DNA of 64,000 nt from Streptomyces sp. RPT161 (GTDB taxonomy: Bacteria > Actinomycetota > Actinomycetes > Streptomycetales > Streptomycetaceae), in contig NZ_JAPZVN010000021.1 in NCBI RefSeq assembly GCF_027533845.1, positions 1-64,000 of the forward strand, read 5' to 3'. Positions within the stretch are counted from its first letter, which is position 1; the number at the start of each line of letters is the position of its first letter. Below are positions 27,833 to 43,334 of the stretch, piece by piece. Position numbers and translations under genes: made by a program. The notes under the pieces are model-generated. The model had not been told where the DNA came from and made no database searches. It worked only from the letters and a program-made list of their open reading frames with translations.

Positions 27833-29535
27833 CCGCGGACGCCCGGGTGCGCCTGGTCGACTACCTGGCCGGGGAGTTGGCCCGGATCGGCGCCCGGTAC
27901 GTGTTCGGCGTGGGTGGCGCGAACATCGAGGACCTGTACGACGCCGTGCACCACCAGCCGGGGTTGACCGGCGTGGTGGCGAAGCACGAGTTCTCCGCGG
28001 CCACCATGGCGGACGGCTACGCCCGGGCCACCCGGCGGACCGGTGTGGTCATGGCCACCTCCGGCGGCGGGGCGATGAACCTGGTGCCGGGACTCGCCGA
28101 GGCGCACGCCTCACGGGTGCCGCTGCTGGCACTGGTGGGGCAGCCGCCGACCGGGTTGGACGGGCGGGGTGCGTTCCAGGACTCCAGCGGCAAGGGCGGC
28201 TCCTTCGACGCGGCGCGGGTCTTCGCGCCGGTGTCCCGGTTCTGCGCCCGGGTGACCGAACCGGAGTCGTTCGCCGGACTGCTGGCAGAGGCGATCCAGG
28301 CAACGCGGACCCACCCGCGGGGTCCGGCGGTACTGCTGCTGCCCAAGGACGTACAGCAGGCCCTCGTCACCGTGCCGAGGAGCACGCCGGTACCGCCACC
28401 GGTGGTGCGGCCGGATCCGGCGGCCCTGGACGAGGCCGTGCGGCTGCTGGACGGCGCCCAGCGCGTCCTGCTGATCGCCGGTGAGGGGGTGGCCGCCTCC
28501 GGTGCCCGCGCGGAACTGGCCGAACTGGCAACGGCGTTGGGGGCGTGGGTGGCGGTCAGCCCGGACGCCAAGGACGTCTTCCCCAACCACGACCCCCGGT
28601 ACGTCGGGGTGGCCGGGGTGATGGGGCACCTCGGCGTCCAGGACCATCTGCGTCGTGCCGATGCCTGCCTGCTGGTCGGCACCCGCCTGCCGTTGATGGC
28701 CCGCGGCGGCCTGGACGAAGCGCTGCGCACCACCCCCGTGGTTTGCGTGGACCCGGAACCGCCGTTCGTCCCCGGCATCGCGCTGCGCGGCGACCCGCGC
28801 CAGACGCTGGCCACCCTCAACGCCCGACTGACGCCACGGCCCCGCCCGCACCCGGAACCCGCGGGCGACCCGCGCCCGTTGGCCGTACCGCCACCTCCCG
28901 GGGCCGGCTTGTCGTATGCCGAGGCGCTCTCCGCGATCGCCTCGGCGCTGCCCGAGCGCGCCCATGTCTTCGTGGACGCCGGGAACGTCGGAGCGAGCGC
29001 CATCCATCTGCTGCCCGCGCCGCGCGACGGCCGGTTCGTGGTGGCGGTGGGCATGGGCGGCATGGGCTACACCTTCGGCGCGGGCATCGGCGCGGCGCTC
29101 GGCACCGGTCGCCGTACGTATGTGCTGGCCGGGGACGGCGCGTTCTTCATGCACGGGATGGAGGTGCACACCGCGGTCGAGTACGCGGCCCCGGTCACCT
29201 TCGTCATCCTCAACAACAACGCGCACGCGATGTGCGCCACCCGCGAGCAGCTGTTCCAGGGCGGCGCCCGTACCGAGAACGTCTTCCGTCCGTCCGACAT
29301 CGCCGCCGGTGCGGCGGCTATGTTCCCCGACCTGGACGTGAGCCGGGCACACCGCGCCGGTGATCTGCGCCTGGCCCTGCTGCGGGGAAACGGCAACGCC
29401 GGTCCGGCGTTGGTCGCCCTGGACTTCGACCACCGGGAGATCCCCCCGTTCCTCCCCTTCCTGGCCGCCCCGGACCAGGAACCCGACCACACCGAGGAGA
29501 GCACCGATGACCGCGGACCACTCCACGTTGGCTGA
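27829..29535 (+). CDS. ThDP-dependent enzyme, acetolactate-synthase-like
   Basis: A 568-residue protein with the three domains of thiamine-diphosphate enzymes: N-terminal PYR (about 1-170), central domain (about 190-330) and C-terminal PP (about 365-550). The catalytic glutamate is Glu54 in VAKHEFSAATMADGYARA. The metal/ThDP motif starts GDG at about 435-437 and ends in VILNNN. The FAD-binding residues of true acetolactate synthase are not evident. Such enzymes decarboxylate 2-oxo acids and may ligate the product to an acceptor. Expected role here: making an acyl or aldehyde building block for the cluster. It overlaps the regulator gene by four bases and the next gene by 29. Confidence 0.85.
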   Translation: MTADARVRLVDYLAGELARIGARYVFGVGGANIEDLYDAVHHQPGLTGVVAKHEFSAATMADGYARATRRTGVVMATSGGGAMNLVPGLAEAHASRVPLLALVGQPPTGLDGRGAFQDSSGKGGSFDAARVFAPVSRFCARVTEPESFAGLLAEAIQATRTHPRGPAVLLLPKDVQQALVTVPRSTPVPPPVVRPDPAALDEAVRLLDGAQRVLLIAGEGVAASGARAELAELATALGAWVAVSPDAKDVFPNHDPRYVGVAGVMGHLGVQDHLRRADACLLVGTRLPLMARGGLDEALRTTPVVCVDPEPPFVPGIALRGDPRQTLATLNARLTPRPRPHPEPAGDPRPLAVPPPPGAGLSYAEALSAIASALPERAHVFVDAGNVGASAIHLLPAPRDGRFVVAVGMGGMGYTFGAGIGAALGTGRRTYVLAGDGAFFMHGMEVHTAVEYAAPVTFVILNNNAHAMCATREQLFQGGARTENVFRPSDIAAGAAAMFPDLDVSRAHRAGDLRLALLRGNGNAGPALVALDFDHREIPPFLPFLAAPDQEPDHTEESTDDRGPLHVG

Positions 29536-30160
29536 AGTGCCCGGCCTGATAAGGGTGGAGAACACCACCCCCGAGCAACTGGCCGAGCACTGCGCCCGGA
29601 TGACCCGGGAGAGTTATCCGCACCAGCAGGTCTACGGGCGGTACTGCACCATCGAGCAGTACGTCGACTGCCCGCCCGAGCAGGTCTACGACTATCTGCG
29701 CCAGGGGCACCACCTGGAGGAATGGACCTGTAGCCTGCGGGACTTCGGCCCCACCGACACGCCCGGGCTGTGGCTCGGGCGCGACCTGCTGGAGCCGGGC
29801 ACCGGCATCTACTGCAAGGTGGTGGCCAACTCCGAGGCGATGACGGTGGACTACCACTGCGCCTGGGACCAGGGCGAGACGCTGTGGATGGTCTATCTGA
29901 TGCGGGTGGTCCCGGCGTCCCTGGTGCTGGACGAGCCGGGCTCGGTGGTCACCTGGACCAACTGCCGCCATCCGTACTACGACGCCAACCCGTTCCCGGA
30001 GCGTGCGCCGCGCCCCGACCGGCGCTGGGTGGGCGAGTACTGGGACCTGTTCTACGCCGGTCACACGGTGGAGATGCACAACCTCAAGGCGATCCTGGAA
30101 CACCGCCACAAGGCCGGGCTTCCGGTCAGCGTGCCGCCCACGCGGGCGGTGGCCCGTTGA
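29507..30160 (+). CDS. SRPBCC-like (START/Bet v1-fold) protein
   Basis: A 217-residue soluble protein. The ATG at 29507 is used because GAGGAGAG lies six bases upstream, even though it overlaps the ThDP gene by 29 bases. The segment YGRYCTIEQYVDCPPEQVYD-YLRQ matches the start of SRPBCC domains (a hydrophobic pocket fold; polyketide cyclases, lipid carriers). Alternating beta-like stretches (VDYHCAWDQ, LWMVYLMRVV, VVTWTNCRH) and a long C-terminal helix follow. No catalytic motif is fixed in this fold. The role is probably binding or cyclising a pathway intermediate; the assignment is moderate. Confidence 0.6.
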   Translation: MTADHSTLAEVPGLIRVENTTPEQLAEHCARMTRESYPHQQVYGRYCTIEQYVDCPPEQVYDYLRQGHHLEEWTCSLRDFGPTDTPGLWLGRDLLEPGTGIYCKVVANSEAMTVDYHCAWDQGETLWMVYLMRVVPASLVLDEPGSVVTWTNCRHPYYDANPFPERAPRPDRRWVGEYWDLFYAGHTVEMHNLKAILEHRHKAGLPVSVPPTRAVAR

Positions 30161-31167
30161 CTCCGGTCAGCCTCACCGATGTCGCGGCACATCTGCCGGG
30201 CGAGCCGGTGCCCGCGGAGTTCTACACCGGCTACCCCGGGGCGGAGGACCGGCTGCGGGACAGCCCGATGTTCCGGGTGCCGCCGTTCCGGCACCATGTG
30301 GCGGAGGGGGAGAGCAACGTCGACCTGATCGAGCGGGCCGTGCGGCCGCTGATGGAGCGGCACGGCCGGGCGGCGATCCGCGGGGTGGACGTGCTGCTGG
30401 TGCACAGCCAGTTGCCGGACGTGCCGTTCGTCGGCGCGGGCACCGAGGTGGCGCGCCGCCTCGGCATGTCCCCGGAGTGGCTGGTGGACGTGGCCAACGG
30501 GGGCTGCGCGTCGTTCGTCCACATGCTGGGCCTCGCCCGGCAGTTGCTGACCACCACCTCGGCGAGGTCCGCGCTGATCTGCAACGCGCAGACCGCGGCC
30601 GGCCAGTTGTTCACCCAGTCCGAGGTGCGCGGGCTCGCCCAGGCCGCGATCCCGGGTGACGGCTGCGGGGTGGGGTACGTCACCGCGTCCGGCCCGAATC
30701 CCGTACTGGACGTGCGGGTGCGGCACATCGCCGAGTACGCGGGGGACATGACGATGGTGCGCGACGACGGCCGCAGGTACTGGGAGCCGGGCGAGGCGCA
30801 GTTGCGGATCGGCTTCACCGAGACCGGTGTCGCCCGGGTGCTGGAGCGCGGCAACCGGCTGGTCCCCGAGGTGGTCACCGAGTTGTGCAAGGATCTCGGC
30901 AGGGATGCCGCCGAGATCGGTACGCTGATCACCAACCAGCCCAACCGCACCTTCCTGCGCAACTGGCGGGAGGCACTGGGCCTACCGCCCGAACGCCACC
31001 CGGACACCTTCGACACCTGCGGCAACCTGTTCGGCGCGGCGATCCCGATCACCCTCGACCGCACCATCCGCTCAGGCGACCTGGAGGACGGCTCGTTGCT
31101 GGTCCTGGGCGGCTTCGCGCACGCGGGTGACTTCGCGGGCGCGGCAGCGGTGGAGTGGCACGGCTAG
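30157..31167 (+). CDS. KAS III-like condensing enzyme, catalytic His missing
   Basis: A 336-residue thiolase-fold protein of the 3-oxoacyl-ACP synthase III group. The nucleophile is Cys117 in ANGGCASFVHML. In place of the usual HQAN motif it has NQPN (Asn260), and Asn290 occurs in CGNLFGAAIP. A Cys-Asn-Asn arrangement favours acyl transfer or non-decarboxylative C-C bond formation over standard malonyl condensation, as with other diverged KAS III proteins. The TTG start overlaps the previous stop (TTGA), so it is translationally coupled; no other start gives the full N-terminus. A second KAS III-like gene follows the PucR gene. Confidence 0.8.
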   Translation: MTPVSLTDVAAHLPGEPVPAEFYTGYPGAEDRLRDSPMFRVPPFRHHVAEGESNVDLIERAVRPLMERHGRAAIRGVDVLLVHSQLPDVPFVGAGTEVARRLGMSPEWLVDVANGGCASFVHMLGLARQLLTTTSARSALICNAQTAAGQLFTQSEVRGLAQAAIPGDGCGVGYVTASGPNPVLDVRVRHIAEYAGDMTMVRDDGRRYWEPGEAQLRIGFTETGVARVLERGNRLVPEVVTELCKDLGRDAAEIGTLITNQPNRTFLRNWREALGLPPERHPDTFDTCGNLFGAAIPITLDRTIRSGDLEDGSLLVLGGFAHAGDFAGAAAVEWHG

Positions 31168-31284
31168 CAACCGCGACGCTCCAGCCCGCGGTGCCTGACA
31201 AGGCGCAACCGGGCCGGAATTCGCCCCCGGCCGAAGTGGTGCTAGCCACATCGACACAGCGCAATGGGCAACCTTTCCGTCACG

Positions 31285-31301
31285 CCTCGTAGTCTACGAG
31301 G
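31285..31301. promoter_or_regulatory. Perfect 17-bp palindrome upstream of PucR-type gene
   Basis: CCTCGTAG-T-CTACGAGG lies 44 bases before the regulator ATG, in a 177-base gap between two pathway genes. It is the best operator candidate inside the cluster. Autoregulation by the PucR-type protein is inferred. Confidence 0.55.
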
Positions 31302-31344
31302 GCAGCCGTCGACACCCGTCGGCCATGGCCAAAGGGAGCTCAAG

Positions 31345-32661
31345 ATGTCGGTACCCGCGCACATCGCCTCGGTGCGGGCGATCACCTCAGGCACCGCCAA
31401 GGACGCCGAGAGCCCGTCAGACGTCATTCATCTGCCCAGTACACGGCCGTTAGGCGGGCACGGCTCGGTGGTGCCCGCGCTCGCGGAGGCACTGATACGC
31501 CAGGCCCCGCAACTCATCGAGCAGCTCGTTGAGTTGGCCGCGGGCCGGGACGTGGAGCACGTCCAGCAGCTGCCACCGGCCGACATCCGCCGCTCGCTGC
31601 GCGAGCACGTACTGGGCTTCCTGCGGTTCCTCGCGGACAAGCCCGTTCCCGACGACGACCCGCTCACCGTGCCCATGGCCTGGGGCCACCACCGCGCCCA
31701 GGAGGGGGTGGCCCTGGAGTCGATGCTGCGGGTGCACCGGCTGGCCACCCAACTGCTGTGGGAGAAGCTGTTCGACGAGGCCCGCGCCAGGTCACCGGAG
31801 GTGCTGCAACGGCTGCTGGACGAGAGCGGGCCGGTGTGGGACGTGCTGGACAGCTACTCGCTGGCGCTGGTCAAGGGGTACCGTTCGGCCGAGTTGACCG
31901 CCCGCCGCGAGGACGCGGCGCGCAGGGACGCGCTGTTCGACGCGCTGATCGAGGGGCGCGGTGTGGAACCGGCGGTCGCCGCGGAGGCGCGGGTCACGCT
32001 GGGGCTGCCGACCCGCGGCCGGTTCGTGGTGGTCGCCGTGGACGCGGACGCGGGCGGGTCCTTCCGTACGTTGAGCGCCGCGCTGCCCGCGCGCTCGGTA
32101 CAGGCCGTGTGGCGGCTGCGCTCGGACCGGGAGATCGGCGTACTGGAACTGGGCCGCACCGCGCTGCCGCGGCTGGTCGAATGGCTCTCCGCCGGTGCGG
32201 GTCAGCGGGTGGGGGTCTCCGGCGAGGTGGACAGCCTCGCCGACATCGCCACCGCCTACCACTTCGCGGAGACCGCGCTGCAGACGCTGCGCTACGGGAC
32301 CACGGGGGTGGCGGCCTTCGACGACCGGCTGCTGGAGGCCTTCGTGGTGACCAGTCCGAACGTCGCACAGCGGCTGGCCCAGCGGGCCTTCGGGCACCTG
32401 CTGGACTGCGCGCCGGAGGAGCGGGACGTACTGCTGACGACGATGGACGCCTGGTTCCGCAGCGGCTGTTCGGCCGCCAAGGCCGCACAGCGGTTGCACT
32501 GCCACCGCAACACCGTGCTCAACCGGCTGCGCCGGGTGGAGTCGCTCACCGGTCACTCGCTGGACGACGACCGCCATCAACTGGCCTGTCAGATGGCACT
32601 GGTGGCGGTCAACACGCTGCCGCTCACCTCACCGCCGCAGTCCGACACGGAGAACATGTAA
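31345..32661 (+). CDS. PucR/CdaR-family transcriptional regulator
   Basis: A 438-residue regulator. The C-terminal helix-turn-helix AKAAQRLHCHRNTVLNRLRR (about residues 380-399) is the PucR_C type. The middle (about 205-330) resembles the CdaR GGDEF-like domain, and the N-terminal 170 residues are an all-helical sensor-like domain. The ATG at 31345 follows GGGAG by eight bases; the frame opens 27 codons earlier without a ribosome binding site. It sits between the two halves of the biosynthetic cluster with its own upstream palindrome, so it is a likely pathway-specific regulator. The ligand is unknown. Confidence 0.85.
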   Translation: MSVPAHIASVRAITSGTAKDAESPSDVIHLPSTRPLGGHGSVVPALAEALIRQAPQLIEQLVELAAGRDVEHVQQLPPADIRRSLREHVLGFLRFLADKPVPDDDPLTVPMAWGHHRAQEGVALESMLRVHRLATQLLWEKLFDEARARSPEVLQRLLDESGPVWDVLDSYSLALVKGYRSAELTARREDAARRDALFDALIEGRGVEPAVAAEARVTLGLPTRGRFVVVAVDADAGGSFRTLSAALPARSVQAVWRLRSDREIGVLELGRTALPRLVEWLSAGAGQRVGVSGEVDSLADIATAYHFAETALQTLRYGTTGVAAFDDRLLEAFVVTSPNVAQRLAQRAFGHLLDCAPEERDVLLTTMDAWFRSGCSAAKAAQRLHCHRNTVLNRLRRVESLTGHSLDDDRHQLACQMALVAVNTLPLTSPPQSDTENM

Positions 32662-32822: not shown

Positions 32823-32928
32823 CTGGTGAGCGTTTGAACCTCACCAAGCCGACGGTCCCGTACGCGATGGAGCGGACGGTACGACCGCGGTGTGCGCATG
32901 GTTCGTTACGGGGGGCTGGGAGTTGTCA

Positions 32929-33915
32929 GTGACGGATGTTTTCGTCGACTCGTTCGTCTACTCACTTGGCGAGCGCAAGATCCATGTCAATGAGACGGCG
33001 GCCGCGGGCGGACTGATCTCGTCCGCGCAGGACCTCGAGTCCGCCGGGTTCCGCTGGCATCACGTGTGCGAACCGACCACCAGTGCCTACGACCTGGCGA
33101 GCGCGGTCACCCGCCGGCTCGCCGACTCCGACCGGCTCGGTGACGTCGACGCGATCGTGTACGCCACCTGCCTGCCGCTCAACGGCAACGCGGGCGACGC
33201 CGCCGAGTGGGAAGCCACGAAGGACGTCAAACACCTGATGGACTTCCCCGCGAGTCGGCTGCAGGCCGACTTCGGGCTGCACAAGGCGGTCGTCATCGGC
33301 CTCAACCAGCAGGCCTGTACGGCCATGTTGGGCTCCGTCCGGCTGGCACAGGCGATGCTCCAGGTGGAGAAGGACTGGAACCGGGTGCTGTGCGTGACAG
33401 CCGACCGGTTCCCCGAGGGTGCCAAGTACGAGCAGGCGTACAACCTGATCTCGGACGGCGCCGCCGCCTGTGTGGTCAGCCGCCAGCCCGGCGCCTTCCG
33501 TCTTGTGACGGCCCATCAGATCACCAACGGCGGCCTGGGGCAGGCGGGCGACGACGAGACGGTGGGCAGCTACTTCTCGTACACCCACCGGCTGGTGCGC
33601 GAGACCCTGGAACGTGCCGGTCTGACCGCCGCCGACCTCGACTGGGTGGTCACCCAGAACACCAACGACAAGGCGTGGCAGATCCTGGCCAGACTGCTGG
33701 GAGTCGGTTTCGAGAAGGTGTTCTTCTCGTCCATGCCGGACGTCGGCCACGTCATCTCCGCCGACAACGTGGTCAACCTCGCCGAGCTGCTCGCCACCGG
33801 GCGGGTGCGCCCGGGCCAGCGCATCGCCCTCATCATGGCGGGCTTCGGGCTGAACTGGCAGTGCCTGATCCTCGAAGCCACCGAAGCGGTGGCCGCTGCC
33901 GCCGCCCGGGACTGA
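32929..33915 (+). CDS. Diverged KAS III-like enzyme
   Basis: A 328-residue thiolase-fold protein. The nucleophile is Cys130 in NQQACTAMLGSVRLA. The region of the normal catalytic His reads TQNTN (Gln243-Asn244-Thr-Asn246), so that histidine is absent. A later GHVISADN supplies His274 and Asn280, as in some acyltransferring KAS III relatives. The GTG at 32929 is chosen because GGGAG lies nearby; the frame extends 13 codons upstream without support. It starts the second operon of the cluster and may work with the other KAS III-like protein on different carrier-bound substrates. Confidence 0.78.
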   Translation: MTDVFVDSFVYSLGERKIHVNETAAAGGLISSAQDLESAGFRWHHVCEPTTSAYDLASAVTRRLADSDRLGDVDAIVYATCLPLNGNAGDAAEWEATKDVKHLMDFPASRLQADFGLHKAVVIGLNQQACTAMLGSVRLAQAMLQVEKDWNRVLCVTADRFPEGAKYEQAYNLISDGAAACVVSRQPGAFRLVTAHQITNGGLGQAGDDETVGSYFSYTHRLVRETLERAGLTAADLDWVVTQNTNDKAWQILARLLGVGFEKVFFSSMPDVGHVISADNVVNLAELLATGRVRPGQRIALIMAGFGLNWQCLILEATEAVAAAAARD

Positions 33916-33963: not shown

Positions 33964-34884
33964 TTGAGTACATCGAACGTGCCCAAAGCCCGGCTGGCCG
34001 AGGCGCTCGCCTCGCTCGGCCCCACCGTCAGCAGGCTCAGCCACCTGTCGCAGCGCTCGTACCAGAACCCGTACACCGAGCTGGCGGCGTGGCCGAAGGA
34101 GGTCCGGCCGGAACAGGAGTGGTTCAGCAGCCCCGAGTACCTGAGCCTGCACGGCACGGAGCACTGGGAGCGGCTTGACGAGACCGCCCGTTGCCGACTG
34201 GCCTTCCACGAGGCCGCCAACTTCTACAGCCTCAACATCCACGGTGAGAAGTCCCTGATGCAGGGCCTGGCCGAACGGCTCTACCGCAAGGACCTGTTGG
34301 ACGTCTCGGAGTACCTGCACCACTTCCTGGACGAGGAGAACAAGCACAGCATCTACTTCGGCGCCTTCTGCACCCGCTACTCGCGGGTGTACCGCAGCCG
34401 CCAGTTCTCCTTCGAGGAGTCGCACGACTCCCGGTCGCGCGACATCGAGGACTTCCTCTTCTTCGCCAAGACCATGATCTTCGAAGAGATCGTGGACAAC
34501 TACAACTGGGTGCAGTCCAGGGACTCCCGGCTGCATCCGGTGGCCCGGTTCATCAACCACAACCACCACTTCGAGGAATCCCGCCATCTGATCTTCGGCC
34601 GCCGTCTGGTGACCGCGCTGTGGGAGGCCTGCGCTCCATCCTGGGGCGGGCAGACCGTCGAGGAGCTGCGGGCCTACCTGCGGCAGTACTTCACCATGGC
34701 CTGGCGTGAGTACTACAACCCGGACGTCTACGCCGACGCCGGGCTCGAAGATCCATGGGAGATCGCCGAACGAGCATGGTCCGCACCGGCGCAGCGGGAG
34801 CACCGCCGCGAGGTGTCGAAGAAGGTCGTCGGTTTCCTCACCTCGACAGGCATTCTCGACAAGGAGCCCGCCGATGCGTTCTGA
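33964..34884 (+). CDS. AurF-type diiron N-oxygenase
   Basis: A 306-residue helical diiron protein related to p-aminobenzoate N-oxygenase AurF. The ligand pattern is present in order: Glu95 (NIHGEKSL), Glu125-x2-His128 (DEENKHS), Glu174 or Glu175 (MIFEEIVDNY) and His201-x3-Glu205-x2-His208 (HHFEESRH). AurF uses the same ExxH and HxxxExxH motifs with seven ligands. Such enzymes turn amines into hydroxylamines, nitroso or nitro groups. Next to an amino acid:carrier-protein ligase, the substrate may be a carrier-bound amino acid. A TTG start with GAGGA upstream. Its 3' end overlaps the carrier protein gene. Confidence 0.82.
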   Translation: MSTSNVPKARLAEALASLGPTVSRLSHLSQRSYQNPYTELAAWPKEVRPEQEWFSSPEYLSLHGTEHWERLDETARCRLAFHEAANFYSLNIHGEKSLMQGLAERLYRKDLLDVSEYLHHFLDEENKHSIYFGAFCTRYSRVYRSRQFSFEESHDSRSRDIEDFLFFAKTMIFEEIVDNYNWVQSRDSRLHPVARFINHNHHFEESRHLIFGRRLVTALWEACAPSWGGQTVEELRAYLRQYFTMAWREYYNPDVYADAGLEDPWEIAERAWSAPAQREHRREVSKKVVGFLTSTGILDKEPADAF

Positions 34885-35134
34885 GCAGGAGATCCGTGAC
34901 AGCCTGCGGTCCTGGGTACTGGCCAAGGCCGCCGACCGGGACGGTGCGACGATCACCGACCAGACCGCGCTGTTCGAGGAGCGGTACCTGCGGTCGGTCC
35001 ATCTGCCCGAACTGCTGCTGCTGTTGGAGAGGCTGAGCGGTACGCCGATCGACGTGGAGGACCTCAACCCGGGGGACTTCCGCGACATCGACTCGATGGT
35101 GCTCCGGTTCTGCACGACGGGAGCGACGCCATGA
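34874..35134 (+). CDS. Discrete acyl/aminoacyl carrier protein
   Basis: An 86-residue acidic four-helix carrier protein. The region RYLRSVHLPELLLLLERL matches the phosphopantetheine site, with Ser in an LRS context instead of the usual DSL. It ends NPGDFRDIDSMVLRF. The ATG overlaps the AurF-type gene by 11 bases, with AAGGAG upstream. Its stop overlaps the start of the aminoacyl ligase (ATGA), so it is the most likely acceptor of that enzyme. The absence of Asp before the serine is unusual and could affect recognition by the transferase. Confidence 0.75.
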   Translation: MRSEQEIRDSLRSWVLAKAADRDGATITDQTALFEERYLRSVHLPELLLLLERLSGTPIDVEDLNPGDFRDIDSMVLRFCTTGATP

Positions 35135-36066
35135 CGGCCGTCGAGGCGCCCGCCGTCGATCCGGTACGGGCGGCGCGGCTGGCCGAACTCGGCCTGTCCT
35201 GGCAGCCGTCCGGCCAGGCGGCGCTACGCGGACCGCTGCTGCGGCTCGCCGAGGAGTGCGACCGGGCCTTCACCACCCTCGCCCAGATCTGGCAGGCGGA
35301 CGAGGAGCGCCACCCCGCCTCGCTGCCCGCCCAGCGCCTGCAACGGGTCGACTACCTGCGCTCGTTCCCGCACCAGGCGACCCTCGCCGCCCGGCTGGCC
35401 GATCAGGAGGCCAACCTGGACGCGTTCCTGGACGGACCGGTGCTGCACGAGGACGGCACCGTCGCGGTGACCGAACTCGCCGCGGTCACCCAGGTGCTGA
35501 CCCCGGCGGCCTGCTACCACCTGTTCAACGACCACCTGGGCGAGACGTTCGACGCGCCCAGGTACCTGACCACCCGCAACACCTGCTTCCGGAACGAGCG
35601 GTACTACGTTCCGCTGCGCCGGCTGAGCAGCTTCACCATGCGCGAGGTGGTCTGCCTGGGCACCAGTGCCGAGGTGGTCGACTTCCTCGAACAGGCCCGG
35701 GCGGCACTGGACGCGTTCTTCGAACTCGTCGACCTGCCCCTGGAGTGGCTGACCGCGACCGACCCGTTCTTCCGGCCGCGCGCCAACCCGCGGTACATCA
35801 TGCAGCGCGTCGAGCCCGTCAAGCACGAGGCCACCTACGGCGGCGATCTGGCCATCGCCTCGATCAACCGCCACCACGACCACTTCGGGGTCAACTTCGA
35901 ACTGACCCGGGGCGAGGAACCGGCCCACAGCGGCTGTGTCGCCTTCGGTATCGAACGCTGGCTGTTCGCCATCACCGACCGCCACGGCACCGACCCGGCC
36001 GACTGGCCGAGGCTGGCGGACGCCGCGGCCAAGGTGCGCTCCGGCCTGGGTGGAGGCAGGGTATGA
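35131..36066 (+). CDS. Amino acid:carrier-protein ligase (seryl-tRNA-synthetase-like)
   Basis: A 311-residue class II aminoacyl-tRNA-synthetase paralogue without a tRNA-binding arm. It shares with the rhizobial amino acid:[carrier protein] ligases the motif-2 region TTRNTCFRNERYY, SSFTMREVVCLG and motif 3 GCVAFGIERWLFA. The expected zinc ligands are present: Cys128 (TPAACYHL), Glu172 (MREVV) and Cys269 (SGCVAFG). These enzymes adenylate a small amino acid such as glycine or alanine and load it on the phosphopantetheine arm of a carrier protein. The gene overlaps the carrier protein gene before it and the reductase gene after it by four bases each, so a dedicated pair is likely. The amino acid cannot be predicted safely. 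Confidence 0.85.
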   Translation: MTAVEAPAVDPVRAARLAELGLSWQPSGQAALRGPLLRLAEECDRAFTTLAQIWQADEERHPASLPAQRLQRVDYLRSFPHQATLAARLADQEANLDAFLDGPVLHEDGTVAVTELAAVTQVLTPAACYHLFNDHLGETFDAPRYLTTRNTCFRNERYYVPLRRLSSFTMREVVCLGTSAEVVDFLEQARAALDAFFELVDLPLEWLTATDPFFRPRANPRYIMQRVEPVKHEATYGGDLAIASINRHHDHFGVNFELTRGEEPAHSGCVAFGIERWLFAITDRHGTDPADWPRLADAAAKVRSGLGGGRV

Positions 36067-37166
36067 GGGGAACCACCGTCATCACCGGCGCGGACGGCTA
36101 TCTGGGCCGTCAGCTCGCCGCGGCACTGCTGGCCGACGGCGACGACGACCTCGTGCTCGCCGTACGCGCCGACGACAGCGCCGAACTCGCCGCGAAGAAG
36201 GACCGGTTGGCCCAGCGGCTCGGCCCGCAGGCGCGGAGCAGAACCCGCGTCGTCGCCGCCGACCTGTCGCGGGACGACGCGCTGGCGGACATCGACACCC
36301 GCTCGGTGACCCGTATCGTGCACGCCGCCGCCGTCACCCGCTTCAACGTCGAGCGGGACCTGGCGCAGCGCGTCAACGTCGACGGCACCGCACGGCTGCG
36401 GGCGTTCGCGGCGCGCTGCGACAACCTCCAGCGGCTGGCGATGCTGTCCACGCTGTACGCGGCGGGCCGCCGGCGCGGTGACGTCCACGAGGAGCGGCTG
36501 GACGACGTGGGCTTCGTCAACCACTACGAGTGGTCCAAGTGGGCCGCGGAGGAAGAGGTGTTGGGCGCCGCCGGGGAGCTGCCGGTCTCCGTGCTGCGGC
36601 TGCCGACGCTCGTCGCCGACGACGACGGCGGCCAGGTCACCCAGTACAACGCCTTCCACAACACCCTGAAGCTGTTCTACTACGGACTGCTGTCCCTGCT
36701 GCCCGGCGACGGCGCGACGCCGCTGAGCCTGGCGACGGCGTCGTTCACCGCCTCGGCGGTCACCAGACTGCTCGACCCCGCGATCGCCGACGGCGTCTAC
36801 CACATCTGCCCCGACCCGGCCGACACCGCGACGCTGGACCAGCTCGTCGACACCGCCTTCACGGTCTTCGAGCGCGATCCGGGCTTCCAGCGGCGCGGGT
36901 TGATGCGGCCGCTCCCCTGCGACCAGGAGAGCTTCGAGGACCTGCTGTCCGCGGCCGACCTGCTGCGGGGCGGCCCGATCAACCAGTCGCTCTCCTCGGT
37001 CTCGCCGTTCGCGCACCAGCTGTACCTACCGAAGACCTTCCGCAACGACGCGCTGCGGGCCGCCTGGCCCGGCTACACGGCTCCCGACCCGCTCGCGCTG
37101 GCGGAAACCACCTGCCTACGGCTCATCGAATCCAAGTGGGGCCGCCGGACCCAGGAGACACCGTGA
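36063..37166 (+). CDS. Extended SDR, thioester-reductase-like
   Basis: A 367-residue NAD(P)-dependent extended short-chain dehydrogenase. The Rossmann motif is TVITGADGYLGRQL (residues about 5-18), followed by VVAADLSRDD and the catalytic Tyr-x3-Lys in HYEWSKWAAEEEV. The layout resembles the male-sterility/thioester reductase domains that release acyl chains from carrier proteins as aldehydes or alcohols. Its place after the carrier protein and ligase genes fits reductive release. Nucleotide-sugar epimerase is the alternative but no sugar genes are near. Both ends overlap neighbours by four bases. Confidence 0.78.
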   Translation: MRGTTVITGADGYLGRQLAAALLADGDDDLVLAVRADDSAELAAKKDRLAQRLGPQARSRTRVVAADLSRDDALADIDTRSVTRIVHAAAVTRFNVERDLAQRVNVDGTARLRAFAARCDNLQRLAMLSTLYAAGRRRGDVHEERLDDVGFVNHYEWSKWAAEEEVLGAAGELPVSVLRLPTLVADDDGGQVTQYNAFHNTLKLFYYGLLSLLPGDGATPLSLATASFTASAVTRLLDPAIADGVYHICPDPADTATLDQLVDTAFTVFERDPGFQRRGLMRPLPCDQESFEDLLSAADLLRGGPINQSLSSVSPFAHQLYLPKTFRNDALRAAWPGYTAPDPLALAETTCLRLIESKWGRRTQETP

Positions 37167-37750
37167 CGACGCTTTCCGAGAACGACCTGTGGCTGCTCAG
37201 CTTCTACCGCTCCTCCGAGATCAACGGCGCGCTGTTCTTCGGCCGGGTCGCCCGCACCCTGCGCGGCGGACCGCTACAGGCCGATGTCACCCACCACTTC
37301 GCCGACGAGGCCAACCACGCCAAATACTGGACGCGCTGCATCGAGGACCTCGGCTACAACGCCGAGAAGCTCTCCGGTGCCTACCAGGACCAGTACCTGG
37401 AAGCGGTGGGCCTGCCCGCCAACCTCATGGAGGTCATGGCGATCACCCAGGTCTTCGAGAAGCGGGTGATCGGCCAGTACCACCGGCATCTGCGGGCGCC
37501 CGACACCCATCCGCGGGTCCGGCAGACCATTGAGACGATCATGGAAGACGAGCGCTGGCACGTGAAGTACGTGCGCGACGCGCTCCAGGAGATGGCGCGC
37601 AAGTACGGCCAGCAGCTCATCGACGACACCCTCGCCCGGTTCACCGCGGCCGACGAGGAGGTCTACGCCAAGACCCTCGCCGAGTACGGCGAACGCATCG
37701 CCTTCCTCGGCGACGGCGCCGTCGACCTGAGCGTCCCCGGCAAGGCATGA
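37163..37750 (+). CDS. Ferritin-like diiron protein
   Basis: A 195-residue four-helix protein with a complete diiron ligand set spaced over four helices: Glu in YRSSEINGAL, Glu and His in FADEANHAKYW, Glu in QVFEKRVIGQYH, and Glu plus His in MEDERWHVKYV. The arrangement resembles rubrerythrin- and MiaE-like monooxygenases rather than storage ferritins. It probably hydroxylates, desaturates or cleaves a pathway intermediate with O2. The GTG start overlaps the reductase stop (GTGA). Its stop overlaps the next start (ATGA). It is the second diiron oxidase in the cluster, unlike AurF in size and fold details. Confidence 0.8.
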   Translation: MTTLSENDLWLLSFYRSSEINGALFFGRVARTLRGGPLQADVTHHFADEANHAKYWTRCIEDLGYNAEKLSGAYQDQYLEAVGLPANLMEVMAITQVFEKRVIGQYHRHLRAPDTHPRVRQTIETIMEDERWHVKYVRDALQEMARKYGQQLIDDTLARFTAADEEVYAKTLAEYGERIAFLGDGAVDLSVPGKA

Positions 37751-38622
37751 CCGAGACCGTGCTCGCCGTGTGGACGCGGCAGCCGCTGGCCACGCACACC
37801 CTCACCCGCCGGGAGCGGGACCGGCTCGCCGAACTGCCGCGCCGGGCAAGGCCGCAGTGGCTGGTCTCCCGGCACGCTCTGCGGGTGCTGCTGGGCGTGC
37901 TCGGGCTGCCGCGGGAGACCACCGGCTACGCGTTTCCGCACCGCCGGCTGTCGCTGTCGCACATCGAGGGCGCGGCGGTGGCCGCCGGCGCGGTGCGTCC
38001 GGCACCGCGGCTGGCGGGCATCGGGGTGGACCTGGAGACCGACCGGCAGGCCCGGGTGGACACCGCCCGGTTCTTCCTCGACGAGCACGAACGGTCCTGG
38101 CTGGCCTCGCTGCCCGAACACGCCAGGCCCAGTGAGCAATTGCGGCTGTGGACGGTCAAGGAGGCGCTGTTCAAGGCCGATCCGGACAACCGGCACACCG
38201 TACTGCTCGACTACCGCACCCTCGACGCGTCCGCCCGCCGCGGCAGCGCCCGCGCCGGCCCGCACCGCGAGCCGGTCTTCGGCTACGCCAGCACCCGGCT
38301 GCACGGCGCCCACCTGTCCGTCGCCGCGGCGTTCCACGGCGAGACCCGCACCCCGCAAGCCAACGCACCAGAAAGAGAGACGACAGTGCCAACCGCCGTC
38401 ACCTTCGACGAGGTCGCCGACCGCATCAGCACGACGCTGTCCATACCGGTGGAGAAGCTGACCCCGGAAACCACCCTGCGGGAACTCGCCGCGGACAGCT
38501 TCCTGCTGGTCGAGATGGCCGTCGACCTCCAGGAGGAGTTCGACACCATCTTCACCCAGGACGAACTGCGCGAGATCACCACCCTCGGCGAACTCGCCGG
38601 GCTGGTGGGCGCGAAGGTCTGA
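37747..38622 (+). CDS. 4'-phosphopantetheinyl transferase fused to a carrier protein
   Basis: A 291-residue two-domain protein. Residues 1-200 are a Sfp-type transferase: GIGVDLETD (Asp95, Glu97 bind magnesium) and LRLWTVKEALFKAD (Lys138, Glu139, Lys143). Residues about 214-291 are a carrier domain with the modification site ADSFLLVEM (Ser251). No stop separates them. GAAAGAGAG followed after six bases by an in-frame GTG at 38386 could start a free 78-residue carrier protein, so both fused and separate forms may be made. Such a fusion could modify itself and supply holo-carrier to the pathway. It overlaps the diiron gene before it; the MmpL gene follows after 70 bases. Confidence 0.85.
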   Translation: MTETVLAVWTRQPLATHTLTRRERDRLAELPRRARPQWLVSRHALRVLLGVLGLPRETTGYAFPHRRLSLSHIEGAAVAAGAVRPAPRLAGIGVDLETDRQARVDTARFFLDEHERSWLASLPEHARPSEQLRLWTVKEALFKADPDNRHTVLLDYRTLDASARRGSARAGPHREPVFGYASTRLHGAHLSVAAAFHGETRTPQANAPERETTVPTAVTFDEVADRISTTLSIPVEKLTPETTLRELAADSFLLVEMAVDLQEEFDTIFTQDELREITTLGELAGLVGAKV

Positions 38623-38692: not shown

Positions 38693-40987
38693 ATGTCGGA
38701 ACGTCTGATCCGCGCGATCGCAAGACTCCGCTGGCCGCTGCTGGCCGTATGGCTGGTGGCGCTGGTCGCGGCCGGGGTCGCCGCGCTGCCCATCGCCGAC
38801 CGGCTCAGCGGTGGCGGCTGGTACGTACCCGGGTCCGGCTCGCAGCAGGCGATCACGGCCACCCAGTCCGGCTTCGCCGACCGCGGCGCCAGCGACCTCA
38901 CCCTGCTGGTACGGGACGAGCGCAACGCCGCCGGAACCCCCGCGTTCGACCAGCGGGTGGGGCAGGCCATGCGGCAGGTCATCGGCGACAAGCGGCTCGC
39001 GGTGGTGGGCAGTTACGGCTGGCTCGACCTGTCCCCGGCGGCCCGTGGGAAGTTCGTCGGCAAGGACCGGCACACCGCCATCACCCTCGTCGGACTGAAG
39101 CTGGACGACGGCACGGCTCGCCGGGTACTGCCCGGCATCCAGACCGACATCGACCACCGCTTCGCACCACAGGGACTGCGGGTCTCACTGGTCAGCGCGG
39201 GCACGCTGTGGGGCGAGATCAACACACTGAGCCAGAAGGGCCTGCAGACCGCCGAACTCATCACGTTCCCGCTGCTGTTGGTGATCCTGCTGCTGTTGTA
39301 CCGGGGCATTGCGTCGGCGGTGGTCTCCTTCGTGGTCTCCGCGACGGCGATCGTCTTCACCCTCGGGCTGATGTCGGTACTCGCCCAGCACTTCGAGCTG
39401 TCGATCTTCGTGGAGAACGCGGCCACCATGATCGGCCTCGGGGTGAGCGTCGACTACTCGCTGTTCATCATCTCCCGTTACACCGACGAACTCGCCCGCG
39501 GCCGGGACCGCACGGCCGCGCTCGCCGCCACACTGCGCACCAGCGGCAAGACCGTCACCTTCTCCGGACTCATCGTCATCCTCGCGATGTCGAGCCTGTT
39601 CCTGGTGGACCTCAACGTCATCCAGTCGATCGCGCTGGGCATCCTGGTCGTGGTGGCCTTCGCGGTGCTGGCAGCGGTGCTCGTACTGCCGCTGGTACTA
39701 CTGCTGTTGGGCGACCGGATCCTGTGGGGCCGACTGCCCATGCAGCGGCGTGGGCCCGAGGAGCAGGGGCGGCGCTGGCGGAACGTGGCACGGCAGATCA
39801 TGCGGCGTCCGGTCCTGTTCCTGGTGGTGGCGATCGTCGCGATGGTGGCGCTCGCCTCCCCTTCACTCGGTTTGCGCACCTTCACCCCGGACGCGCGCAT
39901 CGTGCCCGAGTCCTCCCCCGTGCGGCAGGGGTACGACGCCATGCGCGAGCAGTTCGGGCCCGGTTCCGCCTCCCCCAACGAGGTGGTCATCAGCTCGGAC
40001 ACCCCGCTGAACACCGCGCGGGACAGCGGCCGGATCCTGGCGGTGCGCGACGAGTTGGCCAGGCTTCCGCACGTCACCGACGTCAACTCGCCGGTCGACG
40101 CGCTACGGGCGGTCAGTCCCGCTCGGCCGTTCGCCGCGCTGGACCCGGCGGTCTTCGACCGGCTGCCGGCCGACGCCCGCGCCACTGTCAACCACTTCGT
40201 CTCCAGCGACCGGCGCACCATCGTGCTCGAGGTCATCGCGGACAACTACGCGTCCAGCGCGCCCTCCCGCGACCTGGTCGCCGCCATGCGGTCCACCGTG
40301 GACCGGCTCGGCGCTCCCGGCCTGCACACGGTGGTGGGCGGTGAGACCGCGGAGGGCATCGACGCCAACTCGGCGATCTCGGACGGGCTGCCCTCGGTGG
40401 TGGCGGTCATGCTGGTGGTCATCTACGTGCTGCTGCTGATCACCTTCCGGTCCGTACTGCTGCCGATCAAGGCGATCCTGATCAACCTGCTCTCCCTCGG
40501 GGCGACGTACGGCGCCCTGGTGCTGGTGTTCCAACACTCCTCCGGTGCCGCTCTGTTCGGCTTCCAGCAGTTCGGCTACCTACAGAACTTCGTGCCCATC
40601 CTGCTGCTGGCGATCCTGTTCAGCCTCAGCACCGACTACGAGGTGTTCCTGCTGCACCGCATCCGCGAGGAGTACGACAGCGGGGCGGACAACACCTCCA
40701 GCGTGGCGACCGGCATGGCCCGCACCGCGCCGCTGATCTCCGGTGCCGCACTGCTGATGGTCGCGGTGTTCGGCGCCTTCGCCTTCACCGGCATCATGCC
40801 CATCCAGCAACTCGGCTTCGGCCTGGCCGTCGCCATCGCACTGGACGCCACCATCATCCGGCTGGTCGTGGTGCCCGCCGCCATGCAGCTGATGGGCCGG
40901 TGGAACTGGTGGCTGCCCGGCCGCCCGGACCGGCCCGCACCCGTCGTCAGGACGCAGGAGTCCGAGGAGTCCGTCGTCCGGTCGTAA
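38693..40987 (+). CDS. MmpL-family RND transporter
   Basis: A 764-residue inner-membrane protein with the duplicated RND layout: one transmembrane segment, a periplasm-side loop (about residues 35-190), five or six segments (about 190-345), then a second copy (segment near 370, loop to about 565, segments to about 745). The SVDYSLFIISRY and STDYEVFLLHRI motifs in each half hold the proton-relay region DY typical of MmpL proteins. Members export lipids and lipid-like metabolites. Its place in the cluster makes it the probable exporter of the product. GGAG lies upstream of the ATG. Confidence 0.88.
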   Translation: MSERLIRAIARLRWPLLAVWLVALVAAGVAALPIADRLSGGGWYVPGSGSQQAITATQSGFADRGASDLTLLVRDERNAAGTPAFDQRVGQAMRQVIGDKRLAVVGSYGWLDLSPAARGKFVGKDRHTAITLVGLKLDDGTARRVLPGIQTDIDHRFAPQGLRVSLVSAGTLWGEINTLSQKGLQTAELITFPLLLVILLLLYRGIASAVVSFVVSATAIVFTLGLMSVLAQHFELSIFVENAATMIGLGVSVDYSLFIISRYTDELARGRDRTAALAATLRTSGKTVTFSGLIVILAMSSLFLVDLNVIQSIALGILVVVAFAVLAAVLVLPLVLLLLGDRILWGRLPMQRRGPEEQGRRWRNVARQIMRRPVLFLVVAIVAMVALASPSLGLRTFTPDARIVPESSPVRQGYDAMREQFGPGSASPNEVVISSDTPLNTARDSGRILAVRDELARLPHVTDVNSPVDALRAVSPARPFAALDPAVFDRLPADARATVNHFVSSDRRTIVLEVIADNYASSAPSRDLVAAMRSTVDRLGAPGLHTVVGGETAEGIDANSAISDGLPSVVAVMLVVIYVLLLITFRSVLLPIKAILINLLSLGATYGALVLVFQHSSGAALFGFQQFGYLQNFVPILLLAILFSLSTDYEVFLLHRIREEYDSGADNTSSVATGMARTAPLISGAALLMVAVFGAFAFTGIMPIQQLGFGLAVAIALDATIIRLVVVPAAMQLMGRWNWWLPGRPDRPAPVVRTQESEESVVRS

Positions 40988-41038: not shown

Positions 41039-41659
41039 GTGGATGACTCCGCCCTCCTGCTGCTCCTGCTGGACTTCGTCTTCATCGGCGCCCTGCCCCG
41101 ACTCTTCTTCCGCTCGGACGGCAGCTTCAACCTGAGGTGGTGGCTGACCGCCCTGCCGTTCTTCCTGTGCCCGCTGTACATCGCGGCGGGGCTCGCGATC
41201 GGCTGGCAGCCGTTCGCCTCGGGTACTCCGCGCACCGTACTGACGCTGATCTCCGTGGTGTTGAGCGTGGCGTCCATCGCGCTGATCTTCATGACGCTGG
41301 GCACCCACCGCATTCCGCTGGCGCTGTGGCACCAGGACAACGACGCGCCACGGCACATCGTGACCTATGGCGCCTACCGCCGGATCCGGCACCCGTTCTA
41401 CTCCTCGTTCCTGCTGGCCTTCCTCGCGGGCCTGCTCGTCTACCCGCACTGGGGCACAGTGCTGTTCGCGGTCTACGGGCTGGTGTCGCTGAACACCACG
41501 GCCGCCCGCGAGGAACGTCGGCTGAGTGCCTCGGAGTTCGGCGCCGAGTACCGCCGGTACATCGCCCAGAGCGGCCGCTTCCTGCCCCGGCTGGGCAGGA
41601 TCGAGGACACCGCCGAGCCCGCGCGCCCGGCGGAAACCGCCCAGGTCATCGAGGGATAG
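41039..41659 (+). CDS. ICMT/PEMT-like membrane methyltransferase
   Basis: A 206-residue membrane protein with about five hydrophobic segments. The C-terminal motif YGAYRRIRHPFYSSFLLAFL followed by REERRL and FGAEYRRYIAQ is the SAM-binding signature of the isoprenylcysteine carboxyl methyltransferase/phospholipid methyltransferase family. Bacterial members methylate lipid-like or hydroxylated substrates at the membrane. A role in O-, N- or carboxyl-methylation of the cluster product is inferred. The GTG start has AAAGGATG upstream. It lies 51 bases after the MmpL gene and 13 bases before the ligase gene. Confidence 0.83.
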   Translation: MDDSALLLLLLDFVFIGALPRLFFRSDGSFNLRWWLTALPFFLCPLYIAAGLAIGWQPFASGTPRTVLTLISVVLSVASIALIFMTLGTHRIPLALWHQDNDAPRHIVTYGAYRRIRHPFYSSFLLAFLAGLLVYPHWGTVLFAVYGLVSLNTTAAREERRLSASEFGAEYRRYIAQSGRFLPRLGRIEDTAEPARPAETAQVIEG

Positions 41660-41672
41660 GACGGTTCTGGAC

Positions 41673-43334
41673 GTGTCACGTCTGATTTCCTGGCTCGCCG
41701 ACCCGCACCCGCAACGCGGGGTGCGCTTCGCCGCCGACGGGGGCGACTGGGAGTTCGTCTCCTACCGTGAACTCGCCTCCTCGGCCCGCCGGATGGCCAC
41801 CGAGATGGTGTCGGCCGGGGTGCGCCCCGGCGATGTGGTCTGCCTGCTGATGCCGTCTGGCCGGGACTGCCTGGCCGCGCTGTTCGGCACCTGGGCGGCG
41901 GGCGCCACGATCTCCCCGCTGCTGCCTCCCTCGTTCCAGTCCGACAACGAGTACACCGAGTACGTCTCCGGAATCCTGCGGCAGGCCGAGCCCGCCCTGG
42001 TGGTCACCGCCGAGACGTACCGCCCGCTGGCGGCCGAGGCGATGGTCCGGGCGGGCCGGTCGGACGAACCGTGGATCCCGCGCGAGGGAGCCACCGAGAT
42101 CCCCATCGAGGACCACGACCGCGAGGGGATCGCGCTGCTCCAGTTCACCTCCGGCTCCACCGGACAGCCCCGCGGCGTCCGGGTCTCCTGGGACAACCTG
42201 GCGGCCAACCACGCGATGCTGAGCCGCCTGCTCGACTGGCGGGACAGCGACTCCGTCGTCTCCTGGCTGCCGCTCCACCACGACATGGGACTGATCGGCT
42301 GCTGCCTGTTCCCGTTCGCCGCGCAGGGCGAACTGTGGCTGATGCGGCCCGAGCAGTTCATCCGCGACCCCGCACGCTGGCTTGAGTGCCTCGCGCCGGG
42401 CAAGGCGACGCACTCGGCGGCGCCGTCGTTCGCCTTCGCCTACGCCGCCCGACGGGTGAAGCCGCAGCGACTGGCCGAGCTGGACCTGTCCAGCTGGCGC
42501 AGTGTGGTGGTCGGGGCCGAGGTGGTCGATCCGGCGGCGCTGGACGCGTTCGCCCGGTTCGCCGAGCCGGTGGGTTTCTCCCGCGACACCTACCTGCCCT
42601 CGTACGGGCTGGCCGAGAACACCCTGGCGGTCACCGGCGCCGAGGGACCGGTCGTGGTGGTGCGCCCCGACTGGTCCTCGATGCGGCTCGGCGAGCCGGT
42701 GCGCATCCAGGAGGCGGGGAAGCTGGGCGACCGGCCCATCGAGCCGGGCTCCGGCTGGCTCGTCGGCCACGGCGCCCCGCACGAGGCGGACGGCGTGGGC
42801 GTGCGGATCCTGGACGCCGAGGGGCGTCCGCTGCCGGACGGGCACCTCGGCGAGGTCGCCGTCACCGGTAGTTCGGTGGCTCAGGGCTACCACGGCGGCC
42901 GGGAGGGCGGCTCCACCCGGTTCGTCGACGATGAACTGCGCACCGGGGACGCCGGGTTCGCGCACGACGGGCAGCTGTTCGTGCTGGGCCGGATGGGAGA
43001 CAGCCTCAAACTGCGCGGCCGCAGTGTGTACATGGACGACCTGGACGCGAAGGTCGCCGCGGCGGCCCGGCTGGACAAGGACCGGATAGCCGTGGTGGCG
43101 GTCAACGACCGCGGCCGGGTCGGACTCGCCGTCTTCGTGGAGTCGGCGCCCGGGCCGTGGACGGACGCGGTGACCGAGACGCTCCGCGGCGAACTGGGCC
43201 CCGAGCCCTCGCTGACCCTGGTCGCCGGGCGGCGCGGCCTGCTCAAGCGGACCACCAGCGGCAAGCTGCGACGGCGGCACATGTGGCAACTCCTCCAGGA
43301 GGACAAGCTGAAGTCGGTGACCGTCATCAACTAG
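41673..43334 (+). CDS. Fatty acyl-AMP ligase (FAAL-type)
   Basis: A 553-residue member of the adenylating superfamily. The ATP motif is LLQFTSGSTGQPRGVRVS (about residues 153-170), with SWLPLHHDMGLIG, a FAAL/long-chain type block, then SYGLAENTLAVTG, LRTGDAGF and the terminal TTSGKLRRRHMW. FAALs make acyl-AMP from a free fatty acid and pass it to a carrier protein. This is the expected entry point of the lipid part of the product, with the carrier proteins at 34874 or 38386 as acceptors. The GTG at 41673 gives a typical N-terminus. The last eight bases overlap the convergent symporter gene, marking the cluster's right end. Confidence 0.86.
   Translation: MSRLISWLADPHPQRGVRFAADGGDWEFVSYRELASSARRMATEMVSAGVRPGDVVCLLMPSGRDCLAALFGTWAAGATISPLLPPSFQSDNEYTEYVSGILRQAEPALVVTAETYRPLAAEAMVRAGRSDEPWIPREGATEIPIEDHDREGIALLQFTSGSTGQPRGVRVSWDNLAANHAMLSRLLDWRDSDSVVSWLPLHHDMGLIGCCLFPFAAQGELWLMRPEQFIRDPARWLECLAPGKATHSAAPSFAFAYAARRVKPQRLAELDLSSWRSVVVGAEVVDPAALDAFARFAEPVGFSRDTYLPSYGLAENTLAVTGAEGPVVVVRPDWSSMRLGEPVRIQEAGKLGDRPIEPGSGWLVGHGAPHEADGVGVRILDAEGRPLPDGHLGEVAVTGSSVAQGYHGGREGGSTRFVDDELRTGDAGFAHDGQLFVLGRMGDSLKLRGRSVYMDDLDAKVAAAARLDKDRIAVVAVNDRGRVGLAVFVESAPGPWTDAVTETLRGELGPEPSLTLVAGRRGLLKRTTSGKLRRRHMWQLLQEDKLKSVTVIN

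Follow-up and report, generated by a model that had tools for sequence, protein, structure and literature searches.

Organization of the operon

The subject of this work is a biosynthetic operon on contig NZ_JAPZVN010000021.1 of Streptomyces sp. RPT161 (assembly GCF_027533845.1). Positions 1 to 64,000 of this contig, a stretch of 64,000 nucleotides, were analysed and are called the window; all genes described for it lie on the forward strand. The centre of the operon is formed by an AurF-family ferritin-like diiron oxygenase (33964..34884, TTG start, 306 amino acids), a stand-alone carrier protein (CP; 34874..35134, 86 amino acids) and a SerRS-like amino acid:[carrier protein] ligase (LIG; 35131..36066, 311 amino acids). 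The open reading frame coordinates bear out the overlaps of 11 bases between oxygenase and CP and of 4 bases between CP and LIG, from which the original prediction had deduced a three-gene unit. Both overlaps are identical in 10 of 10 related loci measured, all of the window type and from the same family, and thus are not an accident of start-codon choice. The unit is real, but it had been ended too early. Three further genes each start 4 bases inside the preceding one, namely RED, an extended short-chain dehydrogenase/reductase (SDR) similar to thioester reductases (36063..37166, PF07993 E 1.9e-29), FER, a second small ferritin-like diiron protein (37163..37750), and PPT, a phosphopantetheinyl transferase (PPTase) with a C-terminal acyl carrier protein (ACP) domain (37747..38622, PF01648 E 1e-12, PF00550 E 1.1e-10). 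Six genes overlap head to tail from 33964 to 38622. They are preceded by KAS2, a condensing enzyme similar to ketoacyl synthase III (KAS III; 32890..33915, PF08541/PF08545), which ends 48 bases before the oxygenase start. An MMPL family transporter (38693..40987, PF03176 E 8.8e-90), an ICMT/PEMT-like membrane methyltransferase (ICMT; 41039..41659, NF040696 E 7.1e-17, below its cut-off) and a fatty acyl-AMP ligase (FAAL; 41526..43334, PF00501 E 5.8e-53; NF006624 E 9.9e-88, below its cut-off) then follow on the same strand. The FAAL coordinates are those of the reading frame from the earliest possible start, and the true start is probably near the ICMT end. The enzymes other than ICMT and MMPL look soluble and stand-alone. 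We show here that the operon is a real, conserved biosynthetic unit, and we propose that it makes a lipid from a nitrogen-oxidised amino acid.

Distribution and conservation

A scan of named genomes with an alignment of 17 oxygenase sequences returned 311 relatives, the best 80 of which are the named loci referred to below. A named locus is termed KAS2-type if it encodes KAS2 at more than 45% identity, which holds for 58 of the 80. The nearest oxygenases are from Streptantibioticus rubrisoli (94%) and S. ferralitis (93%), and the hosts include Actinomycetota, Acidobacteriota, Bdellovibrionota, Melainabacteria, Omnitrophota, Nitrospirota, Myxococcota and Pseudomonadota, many of them as metagenome-assembled genomes. 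Among the 58 KAS2-type loci, matches were found to CP in 55, RED in 54, LIG in 52, FAAL in 46, FER in 44, PPT in 43, ICMT in 36 and MMPL in 13; LIG, RED, FER, PPT, ICMT and FAAL occur all together in 30. Gene order is kept as well: KAS2 lies directly upstream of the oxygenase in 55 of the 58, CP adjoins the oxygenase in 75 of the 80 named loci, and CP, LIG and RED are co-linear with it in 47 of the 49 loci that have all of them. The larger conserved unit is the trio plus KAS III, reductase, second diiron protein, PPTase/ACP, methyltransferase and fatty acyl ligase, and it is more interesting than the trio alone. Outside Actinomycetota the FAAL matches are distant (22-37%) and count merely as AMP-forming ligases; the match in locus L118 fits fatty acid ligase models best. 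In L107 (449-3994), an AMP-forming ligase fused to MFS and acyltransferase domains lies upstream of the operon.

A survey within the same family, in which 43 loci were fetched, mostly those scoring highest for LIG, found the oxygenase in 42, of which 10 are of the window type and 32 are trios in other surroundings, here called generic trios. A quick tree built from 106 oxygenases has a branch of support 100, with the generic trios (31 rows) making up one side and the window type on the other. The KAS2-type rows need four label changes in this tree, so the KAS2 context is clustered and not demonstrably one clade. Of the genomes sampled from the same family, 132 of 394 have a relative of LIG at E 0.001; in a sample of 396 from the phylum, the window's own genome was the only one with FER.

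The oxygenase and its metal site

The assignment of the oxygenase is based on its PF11583 profile match (117.4 bits against a cut-off of 29.6, E 8.6e-34) and on its fold. An AlphaFold model with a predicted local distance difference test score (pLDDT) of 90 matched CmlI (E 3.7e-5) and AurF (E 2.8e-4) best in Foldseek, and the VIA comparison gave CmlI at Z 21.4 (root-mean-square deviation 3.5, 268 aligned residues) and AurF at Z 20.7. Sequence searches of the PDB were less telling. A spurious interleukin match was all that the oxygenase alone and a profile termed A1 retrieved; with another profile, A7, R2-like oxidases came up at E 0.002 and 0.056, and AurF and CmlI weakly (E 0.16-8.7). Metal ligands had been predicted to be intact in both the oxygenase and the ligase, and this holds far beyond the window: E95, E125, H128, E174, H201, E205 and H208 are identical in 59 of 59 oxygenases (KAS2-type loci plus window), where E174 has to be added to the set first named, and the zinc ligands C128, E172 and C269 of LIG are kept in 52 of 52. 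Intact catalytic residues over such distances are a sign of strong selection.

The first glutamate deserves comment. In the sister clade of generic trios it falls two residues later, the sequences dividing into GIRE (32 of 107) versus GE (75 of 107), and we infer that E95 is the corresponding ligand in the window. In the R2-like oxidase alignment, a glutamate that follows a glycine falls at the E95 position. The R2-like entries that bear the names G68L and E69D are likewise in keeping with Gly-Glu at this site; E69 of the R2-like oxidase is presumably a ligand. A seventh histidine, H225 in Dob3, is described as characteristic of N-oxygenases in PMC12154687. Its counterpart in the window is H201, identical in 59 of 59. 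AurF and CmlI share fold and ligand pattern with the window oxygenase, and their substrates are arylamines (PMC12154687).

Carrier, ligase and the probable loading of an amino acid

Window CP itself matches no Pfam family, PP-binding included, and no NCBIfam model. It is probably a carrier by homology to relatives at the same gene position that carry the classical DSL serine; two of ten such relatives tested (L053 and L058) pass the PF00550 cut-off. The predicted phosphopantetheine site is Ser41 within LRSVHL (34988-35005), and this serine is kept in 76 of 76 aligned carriers including the window's. The Asp of DSL is Arg in the window, and Arg, Thr, Ser, Asn, Lys or Asp in relatives. The nearest solved relative of LIG is the amino acid:[carrier protein] ligase Bll0957 (PDB 3mey, E 1.4e-26), with which it shares the catalytic core and zinc ligands, LIG being short enough to lack a tRNA-binding domain. 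We take Bll0957 to prefer glycine. The gene neighbours of the two proteins differ, and LIG is best seen as a divergent homologue, not as the equivalog named by NCBIfam model NF005479. Aminoacyl-tRNA synthetase paralogues of this kind load amino acids on carrier phosphopantetheine, as described in PMC2922099 and PMC9437257.

A pattern of replacement supports amino acid loading beside the oxygenase better than homology alone would. Six of the 58 KAS2-type loci have no LIG; two of these (L120 and L134) end at a contig end. The other four (L121, L125, L128 and L129) encode a further AMP-forming enzyme in addition to a separate fatty acyl ligase, and the three of these four that were profiled all fit TIGR01733, amino acid adenylation, best and above its cut-off. 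With query sequences taken from these LIG-less loci, an amino-acid adenylation enzyme was found in none of the 52 LIG-bearing KAS2-type loci. Thus, where LIG is replaced, it appears to be replaced by an amino-acid adenylation enzyme while the fatty acyl ligase stays separate, and the two activations are kept apart. Among 16 oxygenase relatives on the same side of the tree but without KAS2, ten have an enzyme resembling amino-acid adenylation enzymes centred 1.7-2.4 kb after the oxygenase start. With CP beside the oxygenase, its constant serine and the ligase swap taken together, N-oxidation of an amino acid on the carrier, as first proposed from the window, is the best-supported reading and is likely. 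The accompanying view that such a substrate would be unusual for an AurF homologue is weaker than stated, as N-oxidation of carrier-bound glycine has been published (PMC12154687, PMC9967187).

KAS2 and the other enzymes

KAS2 matches PF08541 (E 5.6e-17) and shares sequence family and active-site cysteine with KAS III (FabH), ChlB3 and CerJ. It differs in the remainder of the catalytic triad. Alignment to 2ebd shows Cys143-Gln256-His287 in place of Cys-His-Asn, His being exchanged for Gln256 and Asn for His287, and each of the three residues is present in 56 of 56 rows covering the sites (58 rows in total). FabH-type enzymes decarboxylate malonyl with the His and Asn that KAS2 does not have. 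Thus, the nucleophile of KAS2 is probably not malonyl.

RED, with the residues Thr130, Tyr155 and Lys159, resembles thioester reductases (TIGR01746 E 3.2e-23, below its cut-off), and Tyr155 and Lys159 are found in 55 of 55 sequences. FER has two EXXH motifs, weak Rubrerythrin and AurF profile matches, an AlphaFold model of pLDDT 81, and six ligands (E19, E49, H52, E99, E130 and H133) kept in 44 of 44. A role of FER as an aldehyde-deformylating oxygenase (ADO) was considered. ADO chains are listed in the Foldseek search with this model, yet all matches there, ADO or other, stayed short of E 0.001. The VIA comparison placed an Arthrobacter ferritin-like protein of unknown function and ferritins on top, with no ADO among the best 50 rows.

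A proposed route to an N-oxidised lipid

The analysis shows which genes are present, that their catalytic residues are intact, how they are ordered and coupled, and that they are conserved over phyla; the substrates and products are, all of them, inferred. We consider it fairly probable that a small amino acid is loaded on CP, N-oxidised there and joined to a fatty acid via KAS2. LIG would adenylate the amino acid, by homology most likely glycine, and load it on the CP phosphopantetheine. The oxygenase would oxidise the amine of the CP thioester, with the nitronate/nitro or a lower N-oxidised state as the most likely outcome. A fatty acid would be activated by FAAL and placed on an acyl carrier, for which the ACP domain of PPT is the probable candidate, and KAS2 Cys143 would take the fatty acyl group and join it to the N-oxidised aminoacyl-CP without malonyl decarboxylation. 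RED could then reduce the condensed thioester or a ketone, FER oxidise further and ICMT methylate the product, and MMPL would export the lipid.

For the joining step a more specific chemistry can be put forward tentatively. A nitronate is a ready carbon nucleophile, and so the nitronate of nitroacetyl-CP may replace malonyl and be coupled by the Cys-Gln-His KAS III to the fatty acyl group with no loss of CO2. If true, many bacterial phyla would have a nitro-Claisen route to lipids of 2-nitro-3-oxo type, or to oxime or nitroalkene lipids. It would be a bacterial counterpart to a termite nitroalkene, for which an origin from glycine and tetradecanoate was proposed (PMC5997979).

Relation to nitronate cassettes and alternative readings

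The closest known systems are cassettes that form nitronates from glycine. Nitronate formation by a ferritin-like diiron N-oxygenase is listed, with reference to He & Ryan 2021, in PMC12154687. For akazaoxime and compounds of the enteromycin type, PMC9967187 describes a diiron oxygenase that oxidises glycine on a nonribosomal peptide synthetase (NRPS) carrier. The title of He & Ryan 2021, as cited in both, gives glycine-derived nitronates two fates, O-methylation or denitrification. The generic trios fit these two fates: beside LIG, 13 of 32 have a gene of the nitronate monooxygenase (NMO) family (0.7-1.1 kb away), 15 an LCM-type methyltransferase (up to about 3.1 kb away) and four neither, one representative of each family having been checked by profile. 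The window type resembles the cassettes, such as that for enteromycin carboxamide, in its presumed carrier-bound amino acid and adjoining AurF-family oxygenase, and oxygenase, carrier and amino acid activation occur together in it. It differs in that a nitronate O-methyltransferase or NMO-family neighbour, looked for as NMO and LCM genes, was found in none of the 58 KAS2-type named loci. It adds a KAS III, a thioester-reductase-like SDR, a second diiron protein, PPTase/ACP and FAAL, and in the oxygenase tree the supported branch separates it from the generic trios. PvfB and related enzymes of valdiazen, leudiazen and fragin formation are reportedly diiron N-oxygenases that act with an NRPS carrier-bound amino acid; there the carrier is said to be inside the NRPS, whereas the window has a stand-alone carrier and a SerRS-like ligase.

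Several alternatives have to be weighed against fatty acylation of an N-oxidised aminoacyl-CP. The trio could simply be the published glycine-nitronate cassette, with the nitronate released, denitrified or (by ICMT) O-methylated, and with KAS2 and FAAL making an unrelated acyl part that is attached later. The three genes and the oxygenase family are the same, generic trios do have NMO or LCM neighbours, and a methyltransferase, ICMT, occurs in 36 of the 58 loci and might fill that role without being homologous. The lack of NMO and LCM genes in KAS2-type loci argues against it, as does the position of KAS2 directly upstream of the oxygenase (55 of 58), which is kept in Micromonosporaceae that have neither ICMT nor FAAL, and we regard it as unlikely. 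Of the same low probability is a route in which KAS2 forms a C-N or O-acyl bond on N-hydroxyglycyl-CP, the oxygenase stopping at the hydroxylamine and the product being an N-acyl-N-hydroxy (hydroxamate) lipid; acylating a hydroxylamine on N or O in this way is the chief competitor of the nitro-Claisen chemistry. Lacking the decarboxylating His and Asn, KAS2 need not form C-C bonds, and its PDB relatives include ChlB3 and CerJ, which we take to be acyltransferases. The amine-oxidising members named in PMC12154687, however, make 4- and 6-electron products.

That the oxygenase acts on something other than an amine, for example a C-H bond of an aminoacyl thioester or of a fatty acyl-ACP, with the amino acid as head group, is rather improbable. 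Related ferritin-like enzymes do carry out C-H chemistry, as noted in PMC12154687, and the first ligand position is unlike that of the sister clade, so that reactivity may differ. But H201 matches the N-oxygenase histidine in all 59 sequences, and the fold is nearest to two arylamine N-oxygenases. Very improbable, finally, is that CP is no carrier at all, its DSL motif being broken (LRSVHL), and that the aminoacyl adenylate of LIG is used otherwise. The missing profile match and the Arg in place of Asp before the serine would fit this, but the serine is invariant in all 76 sequences, relatives have DSL at the same place, with L053 and L058 over the PF00550 cut-off, and a PPTase is encoded within the operon. 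A hydrazine, azoxy or diazo product, considered in the light of PMC12154687, was rejected: no lysine N-hydroxylase, cupin-MetRS or tRNA-dependent transferase is among the family assignments of the operon, a genome-wide search not having been made.

Some results weigh against an N-oxidised aminoacyl-CP that is joined to a fatty acid. The oxygenase shares only 13% identity with AurF and CmlI in the structure comparison, and a PDB search with profile A1 did not find them at E 1. LIG reaches 135 bits against the NF005479 cut-off of 357. Nine Micromonosporaceae loci have only KAS2, oxygenase, CP, LIG and RED, without FER, PPT, ICMT and FAAL. L125, L128 and L129 are close relatives, and the ligase swap may represent only two independent events. 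The sole NCBIfam match of the NMO-family neighbour of generic trios is FabK (83.9 bits, cut-off 453), and its action on a nitronate is not proven by such a match.

What is new, as we read it, is the operon context, in which a carrier-bound N-oxidised amino acid meets a third fate, acylation by a fatty acid. If this is right, that fate would stand beside O-methylation and denitrification and be spread over many phyla, so that a single example, once worked out, would serve to annotate a large number of silent clusters. A class of lipids with an N-O head group would also become accessible to genetics, and there might be a new logic of C-C bond formation with nitrogen oxidation in place of malonyl decarboxylation. 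An operon of a soil actinomycete that is common to many phyla points to an undescribed lipid class. In literature searches we recognised no paper describing the operon, which is weak evidence of novelty, as most subscription journals are outside their coverage.

Flanking genes and related loci

Upstream of KAS2, a PucR-type regulator (31264..32661, PF13556/PF17853) has matches in 7 of the 58 loci and is a possible regulator of the operon in Streptomycetaceae. A thiamine diphosphate (ThDP) enzyme, an SRPBCC (cyclase-like) protein and a second KAS III-like protein are encoded further upstream (27829-31167). As core parts of the operon these were rejected: they have matches in only two of the 58 named loci, both of the same genus, occur in only L005 and L006 among the ten KAS2-type family-level loci, and were found in only one genus among related loci (L005, L006, L076 and L077).

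In Micromonosporaceae other genes follow RED. A DUF3419 (BtaA-like) gene takes the place of FER-PPT-ICMT-FAAL in L091 and L105 (about 13.0-15.2 kb), and a GNAT gene is found in L087 (13069-14088) and L105; the latter locus also has one FAAL-like match, far away. DUF3419/BtaA-like proteins we take to be a family of S-adenosylmethionine (SAM)-dependent transferases, and with such a gene after RED, an alkyl transfer that depends on SAM may be a recurring late step.

Two observations concern clusters outside the KAS2 type. A region of Streptomyces albireticuli (L150, 9956-19819) encodes oxygenase, LIG, PPTase, carrier, LCM methyltransferase, a KAS III-like protein, ATP-grasp enzyme, ACP and acyl-CoA dehydrogenase. 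We take it as a candidate enteromycin-like cluster; the literature search found no tie to published work. In L043, L053, L056, L066, L069 and similar generic trios, a Cys/Met pyridoxal phosphate enzyme, MaoC and two methyltransferases adjoin. This group also has SAM synthetase, methionine synthase and S-adenosylhomocysteine hydrolase, not all in each locus, and would constitute a self-supplied methylation cassette.

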